This document shows, piece by piece, positions 1,280 to 34,778 of a stretch of 37,172 nt of DNA. Positions within the stretch are counted from its first letter, which is position 1. Each line of letters begins with the position of its first letter. Source of the stretch: Vampirovibrionales bacterium (GTDB lineage Bacteria; Cyanobacteriota; Vampirovibrionia; Vampirovibrionales; JAJTHC01); assembly GCA_947458095.1 (NCBI GenBank), contig CANGYO010000007.1, forward strand, positions 1 to 37,172, written 5' to 3'. Position numbers and translations under genes: made by a program. A model generated the notes under the pieces. It saw only the letters and a list, made by a program, of their open reading frames with translations, made no database searches and had not been told where the DNA came from.

Positions 1280-4200
1280 ATGTTCTTCAATCCACTACTT
1301 TCTAAAAAAACGGCTCAAGGGCTGGGGCTTGCCTTAGGTATGACAGCTATTTTAGTCGGTGGATTCGATCACGCTTGGGCAGAATCTAGCTTGCCTGCTT
1401 CCGCACAATCAGGCGTCAATCTCTATAATCGTGGACTTGTCTCACAATCCTTAAACGTCTTTAAATCCACCGTTAAACGCTACCCCAGCAATGCCTTAGC
1501 CTACACTTGGCTAGGCAAGGCTTATAAAAAACAAGGCGGAAAAGCCAATCAAGCCCTTGCAACTCAAGCCTTTGAAACGGCGTTGGAGTTAGACCCTAGC
1601 GAAACGAATGCTTTAAAAGAACTCGCCGAACTCTATAGTTGGAATCCTAGTAAACGAGCGGCTGCAACGGGCTTGTTTCAGCAATATGTGAGCCTAAAAC
1701 CTCAAGATCACAGTGCGAAAAAGCAATTGGCGATGCTCTATATTTGGCAAGGACAGTACGACAAAGCCACGCCCTATGTGCATGAGCTACAAGGTCACTA
1801 TCAAAACGACCTTCCTTTTCTGACCGCTTATGCTCAATATTTAACCTATAGCGGACGCCCTGCCGATGCCGTGGAACTCTACGAAGGCCCGTTGAAGGCT
1901 CATTCAGCGAATGCGTCGGTGAACTTGCGTCAAGCCTATGTCGCAGCCTTGGTGAAAAGCGGACAAAGCTCCCAAGCTCGCACGATTTACCGTGAAATGC
2001 TCTCTGTTTCCAAAACATCAGGACGCATGGACGACGCCGTTTTGAGTGCGTTGGCAGGCATGGCATTTGAGTTGGGAGATTTTGAAGAAGCCCTTTCGAT
2101 TGATGGTGAATTGCTTCAATCTGGTAAAATTGATGCCGTTGAAACCGCTTTGCGTATGGCTCGTTCTTACCAAAAGCTCGGGCATTATGAAAAATCCCTG
2201 ACTTTATTTAAAGAACTCAACCAACAAGGATGCCTAGACACACATCAAAAAATTGAATACGCCGATGTGCTGACCGCTGCCATGAAAGACGGCGTAAGTG
2301 GCGTGGATCCCTCTCATATTGAAGAGATTTATCGTGAAGCGTTAAAAAGCACGAACGACAAAGTCGGACTTTCTTTACGTTTGGCTCGTTTGTATGCGTC
2401 GCAAGCGGATGAATCCGCCAATGCGGTGAACTACTTTATTTACGCCGCTGAACGGGATTCTTCTGGTGAAGCGAAGGTTGAACTCATCGACTTTTTGAAG
2501 TCTTTGTCTGAAAATCCTGCAGCGAATACGCAAGAAGCCTATTCCAAAGCGCTCAACAGCTTTCCTAACGATCCTGACCTAACAGGCGTTTATGCGGAGT
2601 TTTTGTCGTGGAATGAAGCCACCCGTCCACAAGCGTTGGAACAGTTCTTGAAACTGGCTCAAAACCAACCTAAGGCATCCAAGGCGTATGCCGACAAGGT
2701 GGAACAAACCTTGGTGTGGCACCAAGCCAAGCGTGCCTATTTAAGCTGGTACGAACAACTCGGTGAAGCCTACCCCACGATTCAAGCCCACAAGCTGGCG
2801 ATGGCTCGTGCCTATTGGCAAGACAAATCCGCAACGCCGAATCTTGAAAAAGCCTACACGCTTTACAATGAATTGCTCCCTATTTACGGCAAGGATTCTC
2901 AATTTATCAGCGATTTTTCAGGCATGTTGAGCCAAAGCCCTGACAAAAAAATGAAGGCTCGTGGGCTGGCACTGGTGGAAGGCTTGTACACGCAAAACCC
3001 TGAAGATCTCGCCTTGACCTTGTCTTACGCCAAGCAGTTAAGTTATTCAGGCAAGCCAAGCCAAGCCATTAAATTATTCGACAAAGTCTTGAGCCAATCC
3101 CCCCAATCTCGTGATGCCTTGGTGAGCAAAGCAAATGCCTACTTGTGGAATGGTGAAAACTTTCAAGCCATTAAAGTGTTGAATGAAGCTCGTCACGCTT
3201 ACCCCAATGACATTGAGATTTTGAAGTCTTTAGCAGAAGCGTATAAAGCGATCGGTCGTTATGACAAGGCGTTGGATATTATTCAAGAAAGTAAGCAAAT
3301 TCGTCCTTCACTACCGTCTTCCTTGAGCTATGAAGCCCCTGTTAAAAAAAACACCGTTCAACGACAAGGGGAAAGTCCCACTTACGCCCCTAAAAAAGAA
3401 GGGTTTCGTCCTGGTTCGTTGAATTACAATGAATCAAAACTTAAATTGAACCATTCTCAATCCACAGAAATGGTCGAACCCGACTACACCGATGCTTACC
3501 CACTCATCGTGTGGGAAGATGCCCCTAGTGAAGAGGCTCCTCAAGCATCGGAACGTCCTCGTCAAGCAACACCATCGTCTGAAAACTTAGACGACACCCT
3601 TGCCACCTTGCAACGCTTGCAAGAACAGTCGAATCAACAGTTAGACAGATTGCATACGAAAATGAACGTTTTAAGTGATTTAGCTCCCGGTCAATCCGAA
3701 ATAAATGGTGTGCAGCTCAATGTACCCACACAATCCGCATTTTCCACAGGCTTTCGTGATTCCGTCACAGGTAACGAGCAAGCCAAGCGTCCAGCTTCTA
3801 ATTCTGTTTTAGGCGGTAACTATGCTAGCGAAGATGTCGAACTCGGCATAGGACAAAACATTATTTCGGATGAAGATCCCGCTGTTGGCAACCACGTCGG
3901 AGGTAGAGGCGACCTCTTCCAGCTCGACAAACTGGCAGGCTTGAATCGTGATATTAAAGATGCCATGCGTCCCACGTTTCGTACAGGCTTTTTGTACACG
4001 GCTCAAGACGGCGAAGACACCACCAACAAGTTACGTCACTGGATTGTACCTAACCAAGTGAGCTTCAATCTCACGTCTAACGTCCGTGTGCGTGCAGGCT
4101 ATGCCCTTCGTCATTTAATGATTCCTGCGATTTCAGATTTCAACATAAGCCCTCGTAGCACCACGGCTCATCAATACAGCTTAGGAACGACATTCGGTAT

Positions 4201-5065
4201 TACCGACAAACTAAGCTTTGACGGTGATGCTTCCCTTGAAAATTACACCCAAAGCAATAGCGTCAATGTCAACTATCAAGCTCGTTTGCAGTACCAAATG
4301 AACGACAGAGTCAAGTTTCAAGTCGGTTCACGGCGTTCACCCCTTGAAACCAGTTTCTTGTCTTACGCAGGTTTCAAACCCAACAATGGGAGCTTAGCAG
4401 GGCAGTTGATCGGACAAGCACGGGATACCTCCATTTTTGCGGAAGCGAATTTAGTCCCTTGGAAAAACTGGGACTTAAACATGGCGTATGAATTCGGCGT
4501 CGTCAACGGTAAAAATGTTCAACGCAATACGAAGAATCAAGCCTACGCCAGCTTAGGTTACAACTGGCAATACGCCAAAAACCATGCCGTTCGCTTGGCG
4601 TATGAATCCTTATTCTTTGGTTATGCGAAAAATGCGACCCTCGGCTATTACAACCAGTTTACGACCTTGCCTCAAATGGTGCAGGCTCAAGCCCCTTTGG
4701 AAGCGACACCCAAAGGATATATTTTGGGTGGTTATTATTCGCCTGATACGTTTTTCTTAAACAATATACGTGCGGATTTCAGAGGTAACTTCTTCAACAA
4801 GTTTGTGGAATACAAGCTAGGTGGAAGCATCGGTGTGCAGAATCAAAATCCTGGTATTCCTGGTGAACCCAACGCCACAGGTGCCGCCTATTCAGGCAAC
4901 GGTCAGCTGACCTTTAACTTAAACGATGCCGTTTCCCTTTACGGCGTGGTGGATTACTTAGACACGGGCGGGGTATTTTCTCGCTGGCGTTTAGGGGGTG
5001 GTTTAATTTACCGACCCGCCATTCGTGCGTTGATGCCTGTCATCGGTGCCAAAGTCGACGACTAA
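1280..5065 (+). CDS. Exported TPR protein with C-terminal outer-membrane barrel-like domain (BcsC/PgaA-type architecture)
   Basis: The 1261-residue product starts with a signal peptide (basic LLSKK, hydrophobic 12-28, AWA before residue 35). Residues ~40-690 are helical TPR-like repeats (for example the ALAYTWLGKAYKKQG, DALVSKANAYLWNG and EILKSLAEAYKAIGRYDKAL blocks). A Pro/Glu-rich linker and short coiled coil follow (~690-830). Residues ~870-1261 are rich in alternating Gly/aromatic strands (RTGFLYTAQ, YQARLQYQMND, WRLGGGLIYRP), as in outer-membrane barrels. Periplasmic TPRs plus a barrel are typical of exopolysaccharide export proteins such as BcsC and PgaA. No polysaccharide synthase is encoded nearby, so the exported polymer, if any, is unknown. 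SD GAGGTG lies 7 nt before the ATG. The last residue is not aromatic, unlike many barrels. Confidence 0.7.
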   Translation: MFFNPLLSKKTAQGLGLALGMTAILVGGFDHAWAESSLPASAQSGVNLYNRGLVSQSLNVFKSTVKRYPSNALAYTWLGKAYKKQGGKANQALATQAFETALELDPSETNALKELAELYSWNPSKRAAATGLFQQYVSLKPQDHSAKKQLAMLYIWQGQYDKATPYVHELQGHYQNDLPFLTAYAQYLTYSGRPADAVELYEGPLKAHSANASVNLRQAYVAALVKSGQSSQARTIYREMLSVSKTSGRMDDAVLSALAGMAFELGDFEEALSIDGELLQSGKIDAVETALRMARSYQKLGHYEKSLTLFKELNQQGCLDTHQKIEYADVLTAAMKDGVSGVDPSHIEEIYREALKSTNDKVGLSLRLARLYASQADESANAVNYFIYAAERDSSGEAKVELIDFLKSLSENPAANTQEAYSKALNSFPNDPDLTGVYAEFLSWNEATRPQALEQFLKLAQNQPKASKAYADKVEQTLVWHQAKRAYLSWYEQLGEAYPTIQAHKLAMARAYWQDKSATPNLEKAYTLYNELLPIYGKDSQFISDFSGMLSQSPDKKMKARGLALVEGLYTQNPEDLALTLSYAKQLSYSGKPSQAIKLFDKVLSQSPQSRDALVSKANAYLWNGENFQAIKVLNEARHAYPNDIEILKSLAEAYKAIGRYDKALDIIQESKQIRPSLPSSLSYEAPVKKNTVQRQGESPTYAPKKEGFRPGSLNYNESKLKLNHSQSTEMVEPDYTDAYPLIVWEDAPSEEAPQASERPRQATPSSENLDDTLATLQRLQEQSNQQLDRLHTKMNVLSDLAPGQSEINGVQLNVPTQSAFSTGFRDSVTGNEQAKRPASNSVLGGNYASEDVELGIGQNIISDEDPAVGNHVGGRGDLFQLDKLAGLNRDIKDAMRPTFRTGFLYTAQDGEDTTNKLRHWIVPNQVSFNLTSNVRVRAGYALRHLMIPAISDFNISPRSTTAHQYSLGTTFGITDKLSFDGDASLENYTQSNSVNVNYQARLQYQMNDRVKFQVGSRRSPLETSFLSYAGFKPNNGSLAGQLIGQARDTSIFAEANLVPWKNWDLNMAYEFGVVNGKNVQRNTKNQAYASLGYNWQYAKNHAVRLAYESLFFGYAKNATLGYYNQFTTLPQMVQAQAPLEATPKGYILGGYYSPDTFFLNNIRADFRGNFFNKFVEYKLGGSIGVQNQNPGIPGEPNATGAAYSGNGQLTFNLNDAVSLYGVVDYLDTGGVFSRWRLGGGLIYRPAIRALMPVIGAKVDD

Positions 5066-14641: not shown

Positions 14642-14944
14642 ATGGGTCTGCTTGGCGTAAATGCAAATGCGTTCGTTCCTACACAGGATACGTTATTCAA
14701 TGGTTACGGTTCCCCTCCGAGTGCTTTGTCGATTCCTGAATTAAGAAACCCTTCGCCTGCGGTAGCAAAAGCCCCTGCTCCTTTGATGCCCTCTTACTTA
14801 GGTTCTGGTTATAGCAATGTTGGCAAAAACTATAACCTTAATGCTTTTAAGAATATTACTTCTACACAACTAACTCCTACGTTAAACACAGCTCTTAATC
14901 GTGAAACAGGACGTCCTGGTGCAACATTAAATATCTTGGTTTAG
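14642..14944 (+). CDS. Unknown 100-residue Pro/Ser/Asn-rich protein
   Basis: I do not recognise this protein. Support for a real gene is strong for its size: consensus promoter upstream, AAAGGA 9-10 nt before the ATG, and a terminator about 30 nt after the stop. The product is low in charge (first acidic residue at 16, next at 33) and rich in Ala, Pro, Ser, Asn and Leu. It has no membrane helix, and the start MGLLGVNANAF is too short for a signal peptide. Its composition resembles the N-termini of several other unknown proteins here, notably 30238. It may be a stand-alone member of that group. Confidence 0.65.
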   Translation: MGLLGVNANAFVPTQDTLFNGYGSPPSALSIPELRNPSPAVAKAPAPLMPSYLGSGYSNVGKNYNLNAFKNITSTQLTPTLNTALNRETGRPGATLNILV

Positions 14945-14974
14945 TTTAAGCCAGATGCTTCAATAAGATTTACC

Positions 14975-15003
14975 AAAACCCTTCTTTATCAGAGGGGTTT
15001 TTT
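14975..15003 (+). terminator. Rho-independent terminator
   Basis: AAAACCCTTC (14975-14984) pairs with GAGGGGTTTT (14992-15001) with one G-U pair, followed by more T. It serves the gene at 14642. Its U-tract touches the stop codon of the opposite-strand gene (15002-15004). Confidence 0.75.
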
Positions 15004-16036
15004 AGTAGGTTACGGTAATCTGAAAACGACGAGGCGACCGAGGCTCCTGCTTTTGGGCGACTTTTTTGTGAGGATCTTTGGCGACCAAGTGGCTCCATAA
15101 CAGGGCGACATCTAAAAATAAGTTCCAACGTTGAACATACTCTACATCCAGTTGAGCCACCGCACGAAGCGATGCGTTTGGGTAAAATTTCGTCAAGACT
15201 TGAGCCAAGCCAAAAAGTCCAGGTAAGACTTGAAAGCGTTCCAAATACTTAATAGGCAAGTTGTGAACATCCGCTTCACGCATCAAGGCAGGCCCGACAA
15301 GGGAAAGCGTGCCTTCATACAGACTTAACAAGTACGGTAAATGAGCCAAACCCACCGCACGACTGGCACGCACCAAGAAGGTCGAAGGCGTGTAACTGTC
15401 GTCAAAAACAGCAAAACGAGGCACGGTAATACGTTGTTGAAACTGCCCTAAATAGTCATCATGCACCAAAACAGGACGATCGGCATCCTGCGACTTAGAG
15501 AGAAAAGCCACCCACGCAAACAAAGGGGCCGTAAGCCCTAAGCCGACGATGGCAAAGATAATTTCAGCAACACGCTTGATTAAGGCATGTTCAGGGTGAC
15601 GTTCTTGAGGGGTCAAGGCGTCTAACGCCTCTTCCGCAAAGCCAAGGCTCACCACTTGTGGACGTTCTTGTATAACAGGAATATCTACAGAAATTGCTTC
15701 AAATGCTGGGGCTTCACCAGAAGGCACATCAACGTTTTCTATGATTTCTGGCGTTTTAGAAGGTTCATTTTGAAGAATCGTCTCGTTTGGATTAAATTGT
15801 GCGAGTTCTTCATCTAAAGATGAAGGGACGGGCGAAAGAATAGGGGTTGTGATGCCAAGTGGTGAATGAATGCCGACGGCTTTCTGCCCCATAATGCTTT
15901 GAGCGATCGATTTTTTACCAAGTGACTTTTTCACCACAGAAGTAGGGGCTTCTGTATGCAACAAATCTGCTTTCCCTAAAGACGCATGGGCTTCAAAGGG
16001 GGTCAACAAGTCGTCTAGTGTGGCGATGTTCGTCAT
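15002..16036 (-). CDS. Degenerate bacterial sugar-transferase-like protein (probable pseudoenzyme)
   Basis: The C-terminal half follows the small polyprenyl-phosphate phosphoglycosyltransferase family. It has a single membrane helix (158-179), a PVLVHDDYLGQFQ block (188-200), GTLSLVGPAL (242-251, family GDMSLVGPRP), PGLFGLAQV (272-280, family PGITGLAQV) and LDVEYVQRWNLFLDVALLW (296-314). The family's catalytic Asp-Glu in LDELPQL is replaced: the matching stretch reads LAHLPYL (230-236), so Asp is A231 and Glu is H232. The Lys-Phe-Arg of KFRTM is also lost (VPRFAVF). Residues 1-150 are an unrelated, probably disordered, acidic and Pro-rich extension. AAAGGAATCCCTGCC precedes the ATG. A binding or scaffolding role is more likely than catalysis. 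Confidence 0.7.
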   Translation of the reverse strand: MTNIATLDDLLTPFEAHASLGKADLLHTEAPTSVVKKSLGKKSIAQSIMGQKAVGIHSPLGITTPILSPVPSSLDEELAQFNPNETILQNEPSKTPEIIENVDVPSGEAPAFEAISVDIPVIQERPQVVSLGFAEEALDALTPQERHPEHALIKRVAEIIFAIVGLGLTAPLFAWVAFLSKSQDADRPVLVHDDYLGQFQQRITVPRFAVFDDSYTPSTFLVRASRAVGLAHLPYLLSLYEGTLSLVGPALMREADVHNLPIKYLERFQVLPGLFGLAQVLTKFYPNASLRAVAQLDVEYVQRWNLFLDVALLWSHLVAKDPHKKVAQKQEPRSPRRFQITVTY

Positions 16037-16264
16037 GGCAGGGATTCCTTTAACACTGTGAATCGAGCAATTTTTTGTAGTGTTTTTTATAGTATGACGT
16101 TTGGCATTCTTAAACCGCCTCCACTATTTAAGGGAAGAATCCCCTTCATAGAAAAAGTCCCATAAGTAGATGAAATAACGCTTTATACACTCATGTAAAC
16201 AGGCGTTTTATGCTTTACTTGACTAATCTGTTAGATGAAGTCCCCAAGCAGAAAGGATGCCCCC

Positions 16265-16408
16265 ATGAGCGAGTATGTATTTAAATTGAAAAAAGGTGAT
16301 TTAGAACTTGAACTCCAAAGTGATGATCCTCAATTTATTGAAGCCCAGCTTGAAAATTGGCGTGAAGCTTTACTGAATACCTCTCAACATATAGTATCCG
16401 ATAGATAA
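16265..16408 (+). CDS. Unknown 47-residue protein
   Basis: The short frame begins with ATG 16265 after AAAGGATGCCCCC, the same ribosome-binding pattern used by pgk and pdxA here. The product (starts MSEYVFKLKKGDLELELQSD) has two probable strands and an amphipathic helix. It aligns without gaps over 31 residues to residues 61-91 of the next gene product (16612). Shared positions include K, EL, S, D, F, Q and AL. It therefore looks like a stand-alone copy of a small domain. Its stop codon lies inside the left arm of the structured repeat at 16399-16530. Confidence 0.6.
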   Translation: MSEYVFKLKKGDLELELQSDDPQFIEAQLENWREALLNTSQHIVSDR

Positions 16409-16530
16409 AACGGTCTATGGTCTCTTCGTTGTCGCTACGATTTTTTTGTTTGGTTATGTAGGTCAATCTACACGCCCGCACAAAAAAATCTAGGCTCCTA
16501 GAATAGCCTCATAGCCTGTTTCATCTATCG
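16399..16530 (+). repeat. Structured intergenic element, copy A
   Basis: Outer arms 16399-16420 and 16509-16530 are inverted repeats (18 of 22 positions). The 81-nt core (16429-16509) aligns without gaps to the reverse complement of 21916-21996, with 10 differences. Inside are a perfect 10-bp stem (16439-16448 with 16480-16489), a TGTAG/CTACA hairpin and an AGGCT/AGCCT hairpin. The element lies between the 47-residue gene and the TTG start at 16612, in the same orientation as the latter. It could be a leader RNA or a small palindromic mobile element. Confidence 0.75.
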
Positions 16531-16611
16531 AACACTATAATCCACAAAATATCCCTATTTTTCGCTAAAACCATTACTTGACTTTGCTTCATACGAGAAG
16601 GAAAAAATCTC

Positions 16612-17667
16612 TTGAAAGATGCGACTAAACCGCCTGCGAAGAAAAAGGCGTCCACCAAAACAACGCTTAAAAACACGGCTCCCACCCGTAAAGTCATGCC
16701 GAAGTCTAAAACGGTGGATGCCTTTGTGGAAACGCCTCAAGCCCCAGCAAGCCTAAGTTCCCCTGTGGATACGTCACCCTTTCCCTACCATTTAAAGTGG
16801 CATGAAGCGGGCATCGATTTTGAACTTCATTCGTCGGATGCTCCCTTTATGAGCCAGCAAGCGTGGAAGGTTCAACAGGCCTTGGCAGGCTTACTACCTT
16901 TAAAAAAGACACCTTATACATCCTATACACCTAAAACACCTGAACAGCCTCCTCAAATCACCCCGCCAACAATGCCTCTTCAAAGCCCCGTTTCACCAAG
17001 CTTTCAAAGACAAGCCTCCCCTAGTGCGACAAGTTCCAGACCATCAGAAGATGTCGACTTGGATGAATTAAAAGCGTGGGTGCAAGCCTCTTCCGCACGG
17101 CATAACGCAAAAGAAGCCTTACCCCCTCAGTATTCTAACCCCTTGTCAGCCCCCCCTACCGTTTCCGCCGCAGTGGAAGCCCTGATTCAACAAACACAAC
17201 AAGCTTTTCAAGCCCCTATTGATGCTGTTGAACATCGTCAAAGCCCTCCTGAGCATGAAACGCGTCCCATTTTTTCGACCTTATTGCAGGATTTACAAGC
17301 CCCCACACGCACGGAGCTTATACCTTTGACGCCTGATTTTAAAGGCTATCTGAGCCAAGCCCGTTTCAACGACATCACCGAAGTTCTTTTACTGGCAGGG
17401 GAATATCTCCGAACGCACTTGCATCAGTCGACCTTTGGCTCGTCTCAACTCAAACATTTGGTTGAAAGTGCGGAGGCGGGGCATCTCAACCATGCCGTGC
17501 TAGAGCGTGCGTTGGCTCAGCGATACATTGAAGTCGTGCCTGATTTAACAGGCAACGCCACGAGCATGGAATATCGCTTGACCCACGTGGGGAAGACTTA
17601 CGTCCAGCAATTGAAGGGGTTGTTTCCGACACAAGCCCCCCACCTTCAAAATCTAAAAGAGTTTTAA
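16612..17667 (+). CDS. Unknown protein: basic N-terminus, short shared domain, Pro-rich linker, winged-helix-like C-terminus
   Basis: A TTG start is chosen because AAGGA lies 9-12 nt upstream and no ATG fits; the product is 351 residues. Residues 1-34 are strongly basic (KKKASTKTTLK). Residues ~57-95 match the 47-residue protein upstream. Residues ~97-250 are Pro/Gln/Ser-rich and probably disordered. Residues ~255-340 look helical with a strand pair (SSQLKHLVESAEAGHLNHAV, RYIEVVPDLTGNATSMEYRLT), compatible with a winged-helix fold. Function is unknown; nucleic-acid binding is a guess from the basic tail and this fold. Its last 4 nt overlap the end of pgk on the other strand. Confidence 0.6.
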   Translation: MKDATKPPAKKKASTKTTLKNTAPTRKVMPKSKTVDAFVETPQAPASLSSPVDTSPFPYHLKWHEAGIDFELHSSDAPFMSQQAWKVQQALAGLLPLKKTPYTSYTPKTPEQPPQITPPTMPLQSPVSPSFQRQASPSATSSRPSEDVDLDELKAWVQASSARHNAKEALPPQYSNPLSAPPTVSAAVEALIQQTQQAFQAPIDAVEHRQSPPEHETRPIFSTLLQDLQAPTRTELIPLTPDFKGYLSQARFNDITEVLLLAGEYLRTHLHQSTFGSSQLKHLVESAEAGHLNHAVLERALAQRYIEVVPDLTGNATSMEYRLTHVGKTYVQQLKGLFPTQAPHLQNLKEF

Positions 17668-24464: not shown

Positions 24465-26216
24465 CTAGGCGTCATTTGCTTCTCTCTCTAATTGATCCAA
24501 TGGCGTATGTTGAGGCAGGCGTCCCTTGGCGATATGTGTATCCCAGCCTTTAAAGCGTGCTTCCGCGACCTGGCGAGCATGTTCAATGGCGTTGGGCGTT
24601 TGGAACCAATGCGTTGTCTGTTTGTTATTGAAGCTCTCTTCAAAAGACTTACGTGCCAGTCCTGCTGTGGTGACTCCTGAAAATGCCATAAAGGCAATAT
24701 TCGCCAAATACGCCACATAACGAGGGGTAAGACTTAAATCACTACCGACCGCCGTTAAAGCACTCAATAACGCCCCAAGACTACCCGTTCCCACCAAGGC
24801 GGCATTGAGGCGAGGTGTAATGGCATGATCCAACTTTAAGCCTGTCGGATGAATATTTAAAGGGTTACCATTCCCTTCTTTCAAAAGAATAGGCAAGAAC
24901 ATAAGGTTCGCTAATTGAGGAATCACGGAAGACGCATTGGCGACGAGTTCCACGGTATTGGCGTGTGTTTTGGCAAAAGGATCTTCCGTTTTCGTAGAAG
25001 GGGGTTGATCGACGGATTCATTCGCCGTCATGCCTTGATCGTTTTTAGCGTGACTCTTCTTGTAAACTTGCTTGCCTCCTTCAGCGAGCATCGCTGCCGA
25101 AAGCATGACTAAGGGCAAGACAGAGCCTATCGCCAAAACGTAAGATGCCGAGTTCGGCATGCTGATTTCAGTACCTTTTAGGAACTCTCGACGGGTGGTA
25201 AACATCAAGGCATCGTGAGCAAAACGCCAGTCGGTCGCCATTTTGCCGACCATCCAGCCCAACTGTTTGGCTCCCGCAATGCTTGAAGCGGTGAACGAAG
25301 GCAATAGGTACTTAATGGATTCAGGCAAAGGCATCTTTTTAAAAGCAGGCGTCCACGCATCCATTAAAGGTAAATACGTTTCATAGTATTTATTGCGAGC
25401 CAAGCTTGCCATACTACCAGGGTGAGCCATGTGCATAAAACCCTTGTAGTCGGCTTTAGTGGCAACAGGCAAGATTTTGCTAGGCTGTTTTTTCGCTAAA
25501 TATTCAGCATAATGGGCTTTGGCTCGATTAGACAGGGGTCTTAAATAGGCAGGGTGCGGGAACTCGTCAAAACTATTCCACTTAGAGCCTTCGACTGCTT
25601 TGAAAAACTCTTTATTCGATTTAGACATTTGCGAGACGTTGACTTGATCCATATGCGATTGCGTTAAGGCAGAGCCTCCCATGTAGAGAGACGTCCCCGC
25701 CACAAACATGGGCAAACGAGCCACAGGTGGTACAAAACATGACGCCAAGTTCACCAAGCTTCCCAACACATTAAAGGGTTGCGGCACTTGATCTAAAACA
25801 GGCGCCCTGAGTACAGCCACCATATTCTGCGTAAAAATGCCCGCATTGGCTATTGCTAAGGCATAGCGTCCTAAGGTTCTAAACTGCTCTTCTTTTTTAG
25901 AATTGGCAGGTAAGGCTTGAATAGCGGATTCCTGCTTCTTTTTCTTTTCGTCTTTCTCTTTTTGGACTTTGGCAGGGGGCGGTGGAAGGGGCTGACGTTT
26001 TGTTTGTTTAGCCAAGTCTTCAGGACTTAGTTCCCAAAAGCTTTCAGGTGTGCTTTCCACAGGACGGGTTGGTTCAGACAAGCTACTGGCCGTATACTGA
26101 AACGCCGCAGGTTTTTTAGCGTTTAGAAAAGGAGTTTGTGGATTCACGGAAGGATTCGCAGAAGCACTTAAAGTTGATGGAGGTGCTAAGGTGGAGAATG
26201 AGAGGTTACTAGACAT
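24465..26216 (-). CDS. Unknown multi-pass membrane protein, second gene of the giant-protein pair
   Basis: The start is ATG 26216 (583 residues). AAGGAGGTGCTTT, the best ribosome-binding site in the window, precedes it, and the ATG overlaps the last 8 nt of the upstream gene. A longer frame to 26306 is rejected. Residues 1-33 have no charged residue and are Ser/Pro/Asn/Thr-rich. A Lys-rich segment (~85-120) follows. Hydrophobic stretches include FNVLGSLVNLASCFVPPV, YVLAIGSVLPLVMLSAAML, NLMFLPILL, LNAALVGTGSLGALLSAL and YVAYLANIAFMAFSGV, for about six membrane segments. I recognise no family. Coupling to the 1256-residue protein suggests a complex. Confidence 0.65.
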   Translation of the reverse strand: MSSNLSFSTLAPPSTLSASANPSVNPQTPFLNAKKPAAFQYTASSLSEPTRPVESTPESFWELSPEDLAKQTKRQPLPPPPAKVQKEKDEKKKKQESAIQALPANSKKEEQFRTLGRYALAIANAGIFTQNMVAVLRAPVLDQVPQPFNVLGSLVNLASCFVPPVARLPMFVAGTSLYMGGSALTQSHMDQVNVSQMSKSNKEFFKAVEGSKWNSFDEFPHPAYLRPLSNRAKAHYAEYLAKKQPSKILPVATKADYKGFMHMAHPGSMASLARNKYYETYLPLMDAWTPAFKKMPLPESIKYLLPSFTASSIAGAKQLGWMVGKMATDWRFAHDALMFTTRREFLKGTEISMPNSASYVLAIGSVLPLVMLSAAMLAEGGKQVYKKSHAKNDQGMTANESVDQPPSTKTEDPFAKTHANTVELVANASSVIPQLANLMFLPILLKEGNGNPLNIHPTGLKLDHAITPRLNAALVGTGSLGALLSALTAVGSDLSLTPRYVAYLANIAFMAFSGVTTAGLARKSFEESFNNKQTTHWFQTPNAIEHARQVAEARFKGWDTHIAKGRLPQHTPLDQLEREANDA

Positions 26217-29200
26217 AAAGCACCTCCTTCTTTTTAAGGGCTTCCGTATTTTCTGGCGTGGATGGCTTTTGAGGCGTTGATAAAGGATCCACCGTGTAAG
26301 TGTCATTCAATAAAGGATGCGATGCTTCTTTTTCTTCCGTTTCCACATCTGTTTTCGATTCGTTATTTCTTTCCCAATTGTTCAGTTTTTGGTAACGTGC
26401 ATGCTCATTCAGTTGGAAGTAGGTGACCCCTACCCCAATGGCTCCGCCCGCAGCTGCAAGTAAACCACCTGCTTCAGCGGACTTCATCGCAAAGGCGGGT
26501 AGACGAAGGAGGGCTTGGTGAATGGGGTGATACACGTTTCGTTTAATGGCTTTGCCTGTGCTGTCCATGACTTCATGTAATTTAGGGCGGAATTGATCTA
26601 AGGTGTAGCCCATATGGTAAGGCATCCCCATGGAAAACGCCCCACGATTTTCAAAACCAGGGATCCTATCTAAGAAAGCGGTGGCAAGATGGCTATTTTT
26701 CAAGAAGCGAAGTACGGGGTTAATTTCACCATGCACGAAGGCTTTAGCGAAGGCATCTCTCATGTGTTTATGCCCCACATCATCGGCGTAAAGAATGCTC
26801 GGTTTAATGGCATCGGTGAAAACTTTTTTCGCCAATTGACGATATTCGTCTTCCGTAAATAAGTGACCTGCTTCATAACCAAAGGCTTCTAAGACCTCTT
26901 TATTCCCTGTCCCAATCAGTTGTATACATTTTTCAGGCTTGGGCGTAGAGGCTTCAATTTCTTTAGTGATTCTTTTAAAGGCTTCTTCAATTTCTATTCG
27001 TTCAAGGTCTTCTGCACTTTTTTTACGAATGGCGGCGATCTGGTCTTTTGATTTATTCGTTTCTTTTAGCAAAGCCGCTTCGATCTTCTCTGCTCTATAT
27101 TGTTTTAAGTTTTGTAAATTGCCTTGTTCATTAGTGGTCACATAATGGTAGCGTAAGGGTTGTGCCAAGCATTGTTGTCTTACCGTAGCAATGGCTTCTT
27201 TGATATAGGCTTCATCAAAGCCATGTTGACGCAAGATGTTGCCTTCGCTGGCAATTTTTTTGGCAGAATCGTTGTCAAAGTTCAAGACCTCAATCATCAT
27301 GCTGAACATTTTGGTGTCGTCAATCATGCCTCGCACGACTTCACTGCTGTTATTGGCTCGCAACAAAGCTAAATCGATAATCGCTCGCATATCGCTACCA
27401 GAACTGTCGCCTGCCATGTGAGTACGGCGAGAGAAGTTGACTATATTATTGACGGCACCTTGTTTGTTAATCGCTGTACCAACAACCGCTTCCGTGTAAG
27501 ACCCTGTGGGGTCGTACAAGAAAGTAAAGCCATAATGTTCCGCAATCAGTTTAGCGGTTAGGGTTTTGTCATGTAAGTGCTTGAAGTCATCTTTTTTAGC
27601 AACGGATTCCATTAAATGGTCAAAGGCTTCGTAGGTCAAATCACCGCCCGAGTTATTCATCATATTGAATAACGCCAAACGAGGGTCTTCTAATTTATAG
27701 CGAAGTTCTGACGACGATGAATTGATTTTCATCATCAACATATTGAGTTTTTCAAGCTGAGCTTTGACTTCAGGCTTTTCAGCGGCTTGCAAGAAGCGGT
27801 TGTACATATCCGCCTTACCTGATTCCAGTGTCCCTGTTTTGGCGTCTGATTCAAAGCCATGAGGCACTTTATCTTGCTGTTTCGCAACGTTTTCCCATGT
27901 GTCATACACCCCTTGCAAGTGGGCTGTAATGGTATGCACCGTCAAACATCCGAAATCAACGGTGTTGATTTCTTTGAGCAGGTCTTCAATATCTGTTTTT
28001 TTAAGCTTGCCTTGTGCTTCTAGTCCTTGAAGTCTTTCTATTTCATCCATGAACTTTCTGCCCATGGGAATCACCCCTTCAGGTGTTATTCCGTCAGGCT
28101 TTTTACTCAAGGATTTATTCGTATAGGCTTCAACCTGCTTCGCCCGATCTTCATTGATCATGGTCTGCCCCTGTGAACCTTTCACCTTTTGCAAGTGAGG
28201 AAGTGCTAAAAATTTATGATCGGTTTCGTCTAAGTGACGGGTACGGTGAGCAATGATCGCCAATACTTTAGAAAAATCGCCATGATTCGGGTGCTTCTTA
28301 TTCACATCCAATTCATTGAGCATGTGTAACGCATCAATGGTGAGTCGATCCATTTCCAAAACCCAGGCATGAGGCATCGCCATGGCAGGCTTACCAAACT
28401 TTTCGCCTTTTTCATTAGGCATGTACATGTCCATTTGGTTGACCCATTTGGCACATTCATGGGGGTCTTTCGCATTCCATTTCTTGAGATCAAAACCGTC
28501 TTCTGGCTTATGGCTCTTAATCCAAGCCAGTTCTTGCGAACTTAACCGTTCTGATCGCCAGTTGAGGTGATCCGTAATCAGTTCTTTATCATAATGCTTA
28601 TAATTACCCTTAAACTCCACCACACGAGGCAAAATATCTTGCTTGGTGAGGTCATGAATCAACTTCTGAAGTTCACGCATTTCATAGGTATTCGAATAAC
28701 CTAGTTCAATCATTTGCTGCGGGTGGTAAATCTGTTTGTCTGCAACGACTCTCCCCGAATACCCATTTATATTAAACAGGTACTGCAAGGCTAGATCAGG
28801 GCGACGATCCAAACCCAGCATAGAGTAAAAGTCATGTTGGCCTTGTAAGTTAAACTTGTGGGGTTTGACGCCTAAGCCTAAGACGTCATTGGTAGGAATG
28901 GCTTCTGAAATTTCATTGACCGTGGCACCTGCACGAGCGGTGTTGGCACTTTCAATGGCAGAAAGCAGCATATATTTGATCTGTTCATCACTCATGTGAG
29001 GAAAGGCCTTGTCTGTATTGTCTGCCCACACATTGAGGTAAGCTTCTAACTGCGGTTCAGTCATTTCGGAATGCTTATAAAAGCCTAAGTCTAACAACTC
29101 TTTAATCATCGCCTTGGTGCTAAAGCGAGGATCATCTTTATGTTGATGCGAATAATTCAACGCTTCACGACTCTTCACATTAAACGCCATAGTCACATAA

Positions 29201-29979
29201 TGGGCTAAGCGGTCTTTCGCGGAGATATTGGGTTCCACACCACAGGTGGCCGTCGCAAAGTTTTTAAAGACTTGGGTGCCATCCATGTCTTGCAGACGGT
29301 GAGTTTCAAGTCCATACTTCAAGCACATCGCTTCCATGAGCACTTGTTGCTTCAAACGAGCAACGGCGACTTTTCTATTGGTTTTTGGATTAAAATGTTT
29401 GGTTAAAAAATATTGAACCGCAGGCAAGGCTTCAAACCACTTATCGCCTTCAGGGGTTTTAAACTTTGCCAAAATGCTTTCCGCATGTTTGACTTTTTGT
29501 GCATATTCTTCAGGCGTATATTTGGATTTTTCCAAATCCTTAATCATTAACTTGTCAACAAAGGCTCTGTCTGCTTCATTCATTTCACCTACCGCTAAAC
29601 GGTTTAACGCCCCTGGCAAATGCACCAAAGCATAAGCTGCTGGAATGGTGAGGTATCCAAACAAGCTAGGGGGAATATGAAGCAAGGGATTCTTTTGTTT
29701 CTCTTCATCGGTGGCTCGAACAGGGTAGCCTGAACCATTGTTAGGAATCGGTAAAAAAGGGTGCTGGCTTTCAGGGGCATCCATATCTAAAACACGTATG
29801 CAATTGTAATAAAGCGAAGCACTTTGAGCAAAACCACTGCGTTGAAGCTGAGGTATCCTATTTTGCGACACTAGCTCATTGAGCTTCGCCAAACGTTTTT
29901 TCTGCTCTTCAGCACTCACGCCAGCAGGCTTGAGTGTAAAGGGGTTTTGACTTGTAGAAGCAGAAGAATTAAGTGCCAT
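26209..29979 (-). CDS. Unknown 1256-residue protein, first gene of the giant-protein pair
   Basis: ATG 29979 is preferred: AAGGA lies 13 nt upstream and GGGG closer. A frame from 30057 has no ribosome-binding site and adds 26 basic/aromatic residues. The product starts with an uncharged Ser/Thr/Asn-rich stretch (first charge at 17). It then runs for over 1000 mostly helical, highly charged residues. One weak hydrophobic segment lies near 120-140 (LFGYLTIPAAYALVHLPGAL) and one near the C-terminus (GGLLAAAGGAIGVGVTYF). A long charged coiled-coil-like stretch is present around 985-1030 (KIEAALLKETNKSKDQIAAI region). No catalytic motif is evident. Its stop overlaps the start of the 583-residue gene by 8 nt, indicating coupled translation. 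Confidence 0.65.
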   Translation of the reverse strand: MALNSSASTSQNPFTLKPAGVSAEEQKKRLAKLNELVSQNRIPQLQRSGFAQSASLYYNCIRVLDMDAPESQHPFLPIPNNGSGYPVRATDEEKQKNPLLHIPPSLFGYLTIPAAYALVHLPGALNRLAVGEMNEADRAFVDKLMIKDLEKSKYTPEEYAQKVKHAESILAKFKTPEGDKWFEALPAVQYFLTKHFNPKTNRKVAVARLKQQVLMEAMCLKYGLETHRLQDMDGTQVFKNFATATCGVEPNISAKDRLAHYVTMAFNVKSREALNYSHQHKDDPRFSTKAMIKELLDLGFYKHSEMTEPQLEAYLNVWADNTDKAFPHMSDEQIKYMLLSAIESANTARAGATVNEISEAIPTNDVLGLGVKPHKFNLQGQHDFYSMLGLDRRPDLALQYLFNINGYSGRVVADKQIYHPQQMIELGYSNTYEMRELQKLIHDLTKQDILPRVVEFKGNYKHYDKELITDHLNWRSERLSSQELAWIKSHKPEDGFDLKKWNAKDPHECAKWVNQMDMYMPNEKGEKFGKPAMAMPHAWVLEMDRLTIDALHMLNELDVNKKHPNHGDFSKVLAIIAHRTRHLDETDHKFLALPHLQKVKGSQGQTMINEDRAKQVEAYTNKSLSKKPDGITPEGVIPMGRKFMDEIERLQGLEAQGKLKKTDIEDLLKEINTVDFGCLTVHTITAHLQGVYDTWENVAKQQDKVPHGFESDAKTGTLESGKADMYNRFLQAAEKPEVKAQLEKLNMLMMKINSSSSELRYKLEDPRLALFNMMNNSGGDLTYEAFDHLMESVAKKDDFKHLHDKTLTAKLIAEHYGFTFLYDPTGSYTEAVVGTAINKQGAVNNIVNFSRRTHMAGDSSGSDMRAIIDLALLRANNSSEVVRGMIDDTKMFSMMIEVLNFDNDSAKKIASEGNILRQHGFDEAYIKEAIATVRQQCLAQPLRYHYVTTNEQGNLQNLKQYRAEKIEAALLKETNKSKDQIAAIRKKSAEDLERIEIEEAFKRITKEIEASTPKPEKCIQLIGTGNKEVLEAFGYEAGHLFTEDEYRQLAKKVFTDAIKPSILYADDVGHKHMRDAFAKAFVHGEINPVLRFLKNSHLATAFLDRIPGFENRGAFSMGMPYHMGYTLDQFRPKLHEVMDSTGKAIKRNVYHPIHQALLRLPAFAMKSAEAGGLLAAAGGAIGVGVTYFQLNEHARYQKLNNWERNNESKTDVETEEKEASHPLLNDTYTVDPLSTPQKPSTPENTEALKKKEVLYV

Positions 29980-30155
29980 AACCCCAGTGGGTTCCTTGTT
30001 TTTTCTAAAAGAGCGAGAAAAGGCTTTTTCGTTGAAAAAAAGAGAAATGAAAGGCAACTGAAAAAAGCAGAAATAAGGCTCGTTTAGATCTATGTGTACA
30101 TGAAAACCAAAAGTAGAAATATGTGTTTAAGATGAAAGGATTCATCCATGCTTCA

Positions 30156-33260: not shown

Positions 33261-34778
33261 TTACTCAGCGGTTTTGGCGACCGAAACCACGTCCCCACCC
33301 AAATAAAGCGTGACTTGTTCAGATCCACACATCAAAGGCGTCAAGCTCGACGTACGAGGCACAAAGGTCACACGAGCCTTACTTAATAAAGGTGTTGAAC
33401 CTTGCAAACTTTCAATACCTGTTTGCGTCAAACGCAAGGAACTGTCCAAAATAGATGTTGCGGGGACGCTGGCTCTATGACGGCAAACGACCTTCCAACC
33501 CAAGGTTTCCAGTTGCGTTTCAATGGCGGTTAATTGTTCCGCAGGAAGACTACGAGCATACAAAATACCCACTTTTTTCACGTCGCTTAAGGGTTCGCCA
33601 TCTTCCGTTTCACTCACCAACGGCACGCCATAAATTAAACGACTCAACACTTGTTCCGTCTCATCTTTATCGATAATCCAGTAGCTGGTGCCTTCACGAG
33701 ACGACGTATGCCCTGGCAAAGTCGAAAATCGCATATCTTTAGAAGGGATTTTCTTTGCGTAATTGGCAAACTGCAACAATTCAGCAGGATTCATATTCGT
33801 ATGCACATATTTACTCATCACTTGAATGAGTTCAGGCAAGCGTAAGACCACATCAGGCGAGTTCAAACGCTCACGAATCGCCGTCATAAACTGTTGTTGA
33901 CGACGCACACGCCCAATATCGCCATACGCATCGTGACGAAAACGCAAGAAGCCTTCAGCCGTTTTGCCGTCCATGTGAGTCCAACCCACATCGAGCTTGA
34001 TCCGTAATTTGGCGGTATTGTCGGTGTATCGCATGCGTTGAGGTACATAAACATCAATGCCTCCAATGGCATCGACCATGGCACGCACGGCTTGGAAGTC
34101 TACGGCTAGGTATTTCTGCACAGGCACACCCAAGGAATCCGTAATAACACTACGGGTTTTGTCAGGCCCCCCCATGGCATGAGCGGCATTAAGCTTGCCC
34201 ACACGAGAATGCTCTTCATCCAAATACACCTTAGAATCACGAGGCAAAGAAACGATGTTCAAGCTTTGCTCTTTAGGATTGGGCTTGACCAGTAACATGG
34301 TGTCGGTGCGAGTGCCTAAATAAGTATCGCCCACACGATTATCGTTGCTATCAACCCCCATGACCAAAACGATTTGCGTGGGGTCTGCACCAGGGAGCAT
34401 GCCAAAGGTGGCGTCATCGACGGAAGACTTGTAGGCATCAGGCAAAACGAATTTCAAGGCGTAGAGAAAAATCATTAAAGCCGTTAAAGCACCTGCTAGT
34501 AGAATCCCAGAACGTACCAAAATATTGACCAACGAACGAGGGGCTTGTGGCTTTTGAGGAACGGATTCACCCGCTTGAATCGAAACGTTCGGGGACGTTT
34601 GAGAAGACTTTTTTAAACGCTGAAAAGACGCAGGCAATTGGATCTCTTGCCAATTGGTTTCAGTGTCTTCATTTGCATTGAACGACAAGGGAGGAAACGT
34701 GCCTGAAGAAGACGGCTCACGATGAGGATCTAAGGTTTCCGTGCCAGGGTTTTGTGGTGAAGCGTTCGTGTCGTTCAA
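33261..34778 (-). CDS. LytR-CpsA-Psr (LCP) family protein with LytR_C domain
   Basis: LCP enzymes transfer lipid-linked glycopolymers to peptidoglycan or other surface acceptors outside the inner membrane. The start is a TTG (34776-34778) with AGGAG 9 nt upstream, giving 505 residues. A cytoplasmic tail (1-85) and one membrane helix (~88-112) come first. The LCP domain has GTRTDTM (155-161), SLPRDS (177-182), KLNAAHAMGG (195-204) and FRHDAYGDIGRVRRQQ (280-295), including the conserved Arg/Asp residues of the pyrophosphate site. Residues ~395-500 match the LytR_C domain (VGILYARSLPAEQL). An adjacent small membrane protein may be cotranscribed. Its partner polymer is unknown. Confidence 0.93.
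   Translation of the reverse strand: MNDTNASPQNPGTETLDPHREPSSSGTFPPLSFNANEDTETNWQEIQLPASFQRLKKSSQTSPNVSIQAGESVPQKPQAPRSLVNILVRSGILLAGALTALMIFLYALKFVLPDAYKSSVDDATFGMLPGADPTQIVLVMGVDSNDNRVGDTYLGTRTDTMLLVKPNPKEQSLNIVSLPRDSKVYLDEEHSRVGKLNAAHAMGGPDKTRSVITDSLGVPVQKYLAVDFQAVRAMVDAIGGIDVYVPQRMRYTDNTAKLRIKLDVGWTHMDGKTAEGFLRFRHDAYGDIGRVRRQQQFMTAIRERLNSPDVVLRLPELIQVMSKYVHTNMNPAELLQFANYAKKIPSKDMRFSTLPGHTSSREGTSYWIIDKDETEQVLSRLIYGVPLVSETEDGEPLSDVKKVGILYARSLPAEQLTAIETQLETLGWKVVCRHRASVPATSILDSSLRLTQTGIESLQGSTPLLSKARVTFVPRTSSLTPLMCGSEQVTLYLGGDVVSVAKTAE

Follow-up and report, generated by a model that had tools for sequence, protein, structure and literature searches.

Every member of the monotopic phosphoglycosyl transferase superfamily is described as having an Asp-Glu dyad and a Mg cofactor (PMC10519829), and the locus considered here raises the question of what a member that lacks this dyad does for its cell. 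The gene lies on the minus strand of the window, by which we mean the whole stretch of 37,172 nucleotides analysed, and belongs to a bacterium of the Vampirovibrionales, a cyanobacterial group that does not photosynthesize.

Organization of the gene and its product

The product of the gene matches PF02397 (Bac_transf) over residues 154-316 and model positions 1-173 of 179 with 68.1 bits (cut-off 27), and is a distant member of the family because the other PF02397 proteins of the order Vampirovibrionales, its ortholog apart, score 128-231 bits in a genome search. The only ortholog found belongs to the same genus (genome G001; record L026, Vampirovibrionales bacterium isolate CoA8N_M69.1, holds the same sequence), is 77% identical and begins at the same Met. 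The parts of the gene are as follows.

15002..16036, (-) strand: phosphoglycosyl-transferase-like pseudoenzyme gene, 344 aa, ATG start, PF02397 match
15953..16036, (-) strand: residues 1-28, constrained N-terminal motif, 26/28 identical in the ortholog, dN/dS ~0.05; candidate docking motif
15665..15952, (-) strand: residues 29-124, acidic linker, mostly disordered and less constrained (dN/dS 0.41)
15581..15664, (-) strand: residues 125-152, second constrained stretch, 27/28 identical, dN/dS ~0.05, leading into the membrane helix
15089..15580, (-) strand: residues 153-316, phosphoglycosyl-transferase-like domain (Pfam match and predicted model)
15488..15595, (-) strand: residues 148-183, predicted helix, counterpart of the reentrant membrane helix, with Lys154-Arg155 and Pro171
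15398..15421, (-) strand: residues 206-213, PRFAVFDD, the KFR site; the mobile loop that follows is mostly missing
15341..15346, (-) strand: Ala231-His232, where the catalytic Asp-Glu is expected; codons GCT CAT
15284..15313, (-) strand: residues 242-251, GTLSLVGPAL, glycine/proline scaffold retained, Arg of PRP gone
15188..15190, (-) strand: Lys283, at the place of PglC Arg145
15005..15088, (-) strand: residues 317-344, basic tail, pI 10.6; last 11 residues (SPRRFQITVTY) identical in the ortholog

The N-terminal extension comprises 152 residues with a pI of 4.6 and a net charge of about -13, in agreement with the initial annotation, which had described an acidic addition of some 150 residues. 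A helix is predicted at residues 7-18, within the first constrained stretch (pLDDT about 67). No clear second copy of the first 29 residues turned up in their own genome, the best other match having an E-value of 0.056 and containing a stop, and a simple scan of positions 14900-16700 returned no sigma-70-type promoter.

Fold and membrane seating

The initial annotation held that the fold-defining parts of a transferase persist, and this is borne out by the presence of PGLFGLAQV and LDVEYV and by a predicted model that aligns with PglC at Z 21.3 (2.2 A over 172 residues, 23% identity) and with WbaP at Z 19.7 (4.0 A over 166 residues), the next structural match beyond these two reaching Z 2.9 in a second structural alignment. 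All four Foldseek matches at E-values up to 0.001 are likewise PglC or WbaP chains; Foldseek supports the catalytic-domain fold at E 1.6e-9. The AlphaFold2 input alignment consisted of the window protein, its ortholog and 25 transferases from IMG/VR, and the canonical rows in it help to impose the fold; the PF02397 match is independent of them. Confidence in the model is high over most of residues 150-320 (pLDDT >90) and low over most of residues 24-108, indicative of probable disorder.

Lys7, Arg8, Pro24 and Asp169 of PglC have been reported as membrane and fold determinants (PMC6133551). In a profile alignment, along which the PglC residue numbers were counted by hand, all four are matched, Lys7-Arg8 by Lys154-Arg155, Pro24 by Pro171 and Asp169 by Asp309; the position of Ser23 is taken by Ala170. 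The Lys-Arg pair and the helix-breaking Pro, together with the modelled helix at residues 148-183, suggest that the reentrant helix is retained.

Loss of active-site and donor-binding residues

The active-site motif of the protein reads GLAHLPYL...GTLSLVGPAL. Ala231-His232 aligns without gaps onto the Asp-Glu of LDELPQL in the profile alignment to Campylobacter concisus PglC, and this alignment and the codons confirm the loss of Asp-Glu that had been proposed from the reading LAHLPYL followed by GTLSLVGPAL. The ortholog has the same two residues where active monotopic phosphoglycosyl transferases carry the dyad.

The residues that contact the UDP-sugar have fared no better. The KFR motif, already recorded as lost, is RFA here (PglC itself has KFK), PRP has become PAL, and about 25 residues following the KFR site, amounting to most of the substrate-binding mobile loop, are absent relative to most relatives, so that KFR/KFK, most of the loop and the Arg of PRP are missing. 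The PglC mobile loop (residues 61-81), Met63 and Arg79 have been tied to UDP-sugar binding, the roles of the two residues coming from predicted poses (PMC12550135); the equivalents of Arg79 and Met63 are also gone. Among 24 canonical relatives, exclusive of L049 and L058, 36 alignment columns show hardly any variation; the window protein retains 16 of these, L058 30 and L049 29. Charged or amide columns were kept in 4 of 15 cases and other columns in 12 of 21, a trend in the expected direction that is not significant (Fisher p 0.096). The protein is, we consider, very probably a dead enzyme.

Conservation between the two orthologs

The Ala-His codons are identical in both orthologs and lie inside a stretch rich in synonymous changes. 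By the Nei-Gojobori method on one pair of sequences, the window gene and its sole known ortholog, dN/dS is 0.29 for the whole gene (0.21-0.39), 0.23 for residues 153-316 (bootstrap 0.12-0.39) and 0.52 for the tail, with an interval that includes 1. The gene divergently transcribed next to it also gives 0.23, meaning that the domain is held about as strongly as its neighbour. Residues 1-28 and 125-152 are more constrained than the domain. The search for orthologs retaining Ala-His yielded one, from the same genus, and none with an intact DE. Selection for a non-catalytic role, as suggested in the initial annotation, is supported by the absence of the dyad from both orthologs, the retained fold and the dN/dS of the domain, and we regard such a role as well supported.

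Distribution and the state of the dyad in relatives

Full-length relatives were found only within the genus, in 2 of the order's 18 genomes. When 386 genomes sampled from the phylum were searched with a profile, 12 of them gave matches at E-values up to 1e-9, self included; apart from the protein itself, these matches span the transferase domain but leave out the N-terminal extension, so that the only full-length relative in this sample is the protein itself. A scan of the genome collection with N-terminal patterns returned one record, the same-genus L026; as the patterns were drawn from the N-terminus only, a relative with a different N-terminus would be missed. No full-length relative was found in viral contigs, and tblastn against plasmids (15 records) and phages (4 records) gave only matches with less than 60% identity that in no case reached 80% query coverage. 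In the sister genus, whose two genomes are 93 and 94% complete, each genome encodes a canonical transferase and lacks the ortholog. In a phylogenetic tree the pair could not be placed with a supported sister; its stem measures 7.4 changes per column and its two tips about 0.1, the shape anticipated if rapid change came first and constraint set in afterwards.

PF02397 was found at 39 places in 16 of the 18 genomes of the order, and the motif was read in 34 of them (five unread). Judged from these motifs, the loss of Asp-Glu is not chance variation, because 30 of the 32 read besides the window protein and its ortholog carry DE; the remaining two have EE (L060) and EN (L058). The latter, a Vampirovibrionales protein encoded at 1501-2076 of L058 (G008), has SLENLPQL and GPIP (PIP for PRP) and keeps KFRTM.

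Outside the order, a large transferase from another cyanobacterial genus (L029, G313) reads LASLPQL, HFR and PQP, and a second one from that genus (L126, G411) reads LESLPQL with KFR and PRP kept; relatives of L029 at 42-48% identity have the pair intact. DE was present in 18 of the 20 loci read from the search in question (23 matches listed), in which L125 is L029 again. These two proteins represent an apparent second, graded loss of the dyad, and on the motifs the losses outside the window's genus look like separate events. In IMG/VR the motif was read in 33 of 37 loci (32 DE, one HE), a scan that under-counts losses because one of its patterns used DE. The HE protein, a viral-contig transferase (L114, IMGVR_UViG_3300027610_000002), has NFP for KFR.

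Genomic surroundings

The gene is paired with a neighbour on the opposite strand.

16612..17667, (+) strand: divergent neighbour, 351 aa, no Pfam family

Both genomes of the genus retain this divergent arrangement amid different outer genes, namely pdxA and pgk in the window, and in L026 a reductase at one end with fliP, fliQ and fliR (identified by eye only) on the far side of the neighbour. The C-terminal part of the neighbour has homologues in the order, 13 of the 18 genomes matching the protein; a model of it built on two sequences had a pLDDT of 36, too low to be of use.

Between the paired genes, a 47-aa open reading frame at 16265-16408 of the window (+), MSEYVFKLKKGDLELELQSDD..., has its first 41 residues identical in L026 and resembles by eye residues 59-94 of the divergent neighbour (YHLKWHEAGIDFELHSSD...). 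The DNA of this interval is nearly identical by eye in the two genomes, which makes coding and regulatory constraint indistinguishable. Elsewhere in the window, positions 1280-5065 (+) encode a 1261-aa TPR protein with a C-terminal match to BCSC_C (cellulose synthase operon protein C) of 39.7 bits, and positions 24465-30057 (-) hold two overlapping long open reading frames of 613 and 1282 aa without a Pfam match at the thresholds used.

Possible roles

Rather than catalysing a reaction, the protein probably serves, we suggest, as a scaffold bound to the membrane or as a lipid binder. It would descend from a small monotopic phosphoglycosyl transferase that lost its nucleophile, the neighbouring Glu, the KFR and PRP positions and most of the mobile loop, while the residues that anchor it in the membrane and hold its fold were retained under purifying selection. 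Anchored by its reentrant helix at the inner membrane, on the cytoplasmic side, this monotopic platform would present residues 1-28, carried on a flexible acidic linker, and residues 125-152 to a partner protein, and what was once the groove for the acceptor lipid may have kept the ability to bind polyprenyl phosphate or a different anionic lipid. For docking through these two stretches as the actual mechanism, we see the case as evenly poised. A more elaborate proposal, which we consider unlikely, is that the reentrant-helix fold and the old lipid groove form a platform responsive to polyprenyl phosphate that passes the state of the lipid to a partner at the N-terminal motif, a genus-specific arrangement in a cell perhaps without the Wzx-type glycan pathway from which the fold came.

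Binding of undecaprenyl phosphate (Und-P) had been suggested in the initial annotation, and the protein could instead use it to buffer or sense the lipid carrier while transferring no sugar, a possibility that we take seriously and nevertheless doubt. The LCP family is a class that uses lipid-linked glycans, and a gene of this family lies at 33261-34778 of the window; the retained residues of the reentrant helix also fit binding of the carrier. Arg88 and Arg145 of PglC are reported to bind Und-P (PMC10519829), and their positions are occupied by Arg226 and Lys283 in the window protein. However, the ortholog has His in place of Arg226, which leaves this position unconserved, and replacing Arg145 by Ala or Gln is reported to lower PglC activity 100-200-fold (PMC10519829).

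Regulation of an active transferase was also proposed in the initial annotation; this idea, in which the protein would act as a decoy partner or a false subunit, is weakened by the present analysis to the point that we find it quite unlikely. It draws on the sister genome, where a canonical transferase (L002) exists besides the ortholog, together with a glycosyltransferase and a PF01943 flippase on contig C182, and on a Myxococcus large transferase that is reported to be activated by a bound partner protein (PMC12802240). The same source describes small transferases as functional monomers, and the gene is away from glycan genes in both genomes, with no glycan cluster around it in the window or the sister genome. 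Moreover, the window protein is the sole PF02397 match in its own genome, where the search for an active paralog found no canonical transferase, PF01943 flippase or ortholog of the L002-cluster glycosyltransferase (two weak matches only), although one missing cluster in this 85% complete assembly would explain all three absences equally well.

Very unlikely, in our judgement, is continued catalysis with a different donor via His232 or Asp212/Asp213. Other enzymes can use His or Asp as carriers of phosphoryl groups, and His232 and the Asp212-Asp213 pair, located at the base of the lost mobile loop, are conserved in both orthologs. Against this, the absent KFR, PRP Arg, mobile loop and Arg79/Met63 equivalents comprise most of the known UDP-sugar contacts (PMC12550135). 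Finally, decay of a former transferase, to which the long branch in the tree might point, is so improbable that we reject it, given a reading frame open in both genomes with the same start and end, the dN/dS values of the gene and of its domain, the latter like that of the neighbour, an intact ortholog with the same Ala-His and the lack of any ortholog found with the dyad.

Comparison with known systems

PglC of C. concisus (PDB 8E37, 8G1N), a small monotopic phosphoglycosyl transferase, has in common with the window protein the fold, the Lys-Arg and Pro of the reentrant helix, the Asp169 equivalent and the glycine/proline scaffold of the active site. Unlike PglC, the window protein lacks Asp-Glu, KFK/KFR, the Arg of PRP and most of the mobile loop, and adds the acidic N-terminal extension and the basic tail. 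The similarity to WbaP of Salmonella enterica (PDB 8T53), a large-type enzyme, lies in the C-terminal catalytic-domain fold; the window protein has neither the four-helix bundle or DUF in front nor the catalytic dyad. L002 shares PF02397 and the genus with the window protein and is 25% identical to it over the aligned region, but has KFRSM, IDEFPQL and GPRP. L029 and L126 likewise lack the Asp-Glu pair, but are of the large type with an N-terminal membrane part. No paper about a dyad-less member was found by title or the start of the abstract in the open-licence literature. We therefore class the window protein as a pseudoenzyme within the monotopic phosphoglycosyl transferase superfamily.

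Implications

The dyad has been described as universal in the superfamily (PMC10519829), yet a copy without it is kept under selection here, which suggests a use of the monotopic fold apart from sugar transfer and cautions against annotating such genes as sugar transferases. This copy also provides a natural experiment for separating the residues needed for membrane seating and lipid binding from those needed for the chemistry. Since dyad loss also appears in a different lineage of cyanobacteria and in one more protein of the Vampirovibrionales, this becomes a small general question rather than one oddity.
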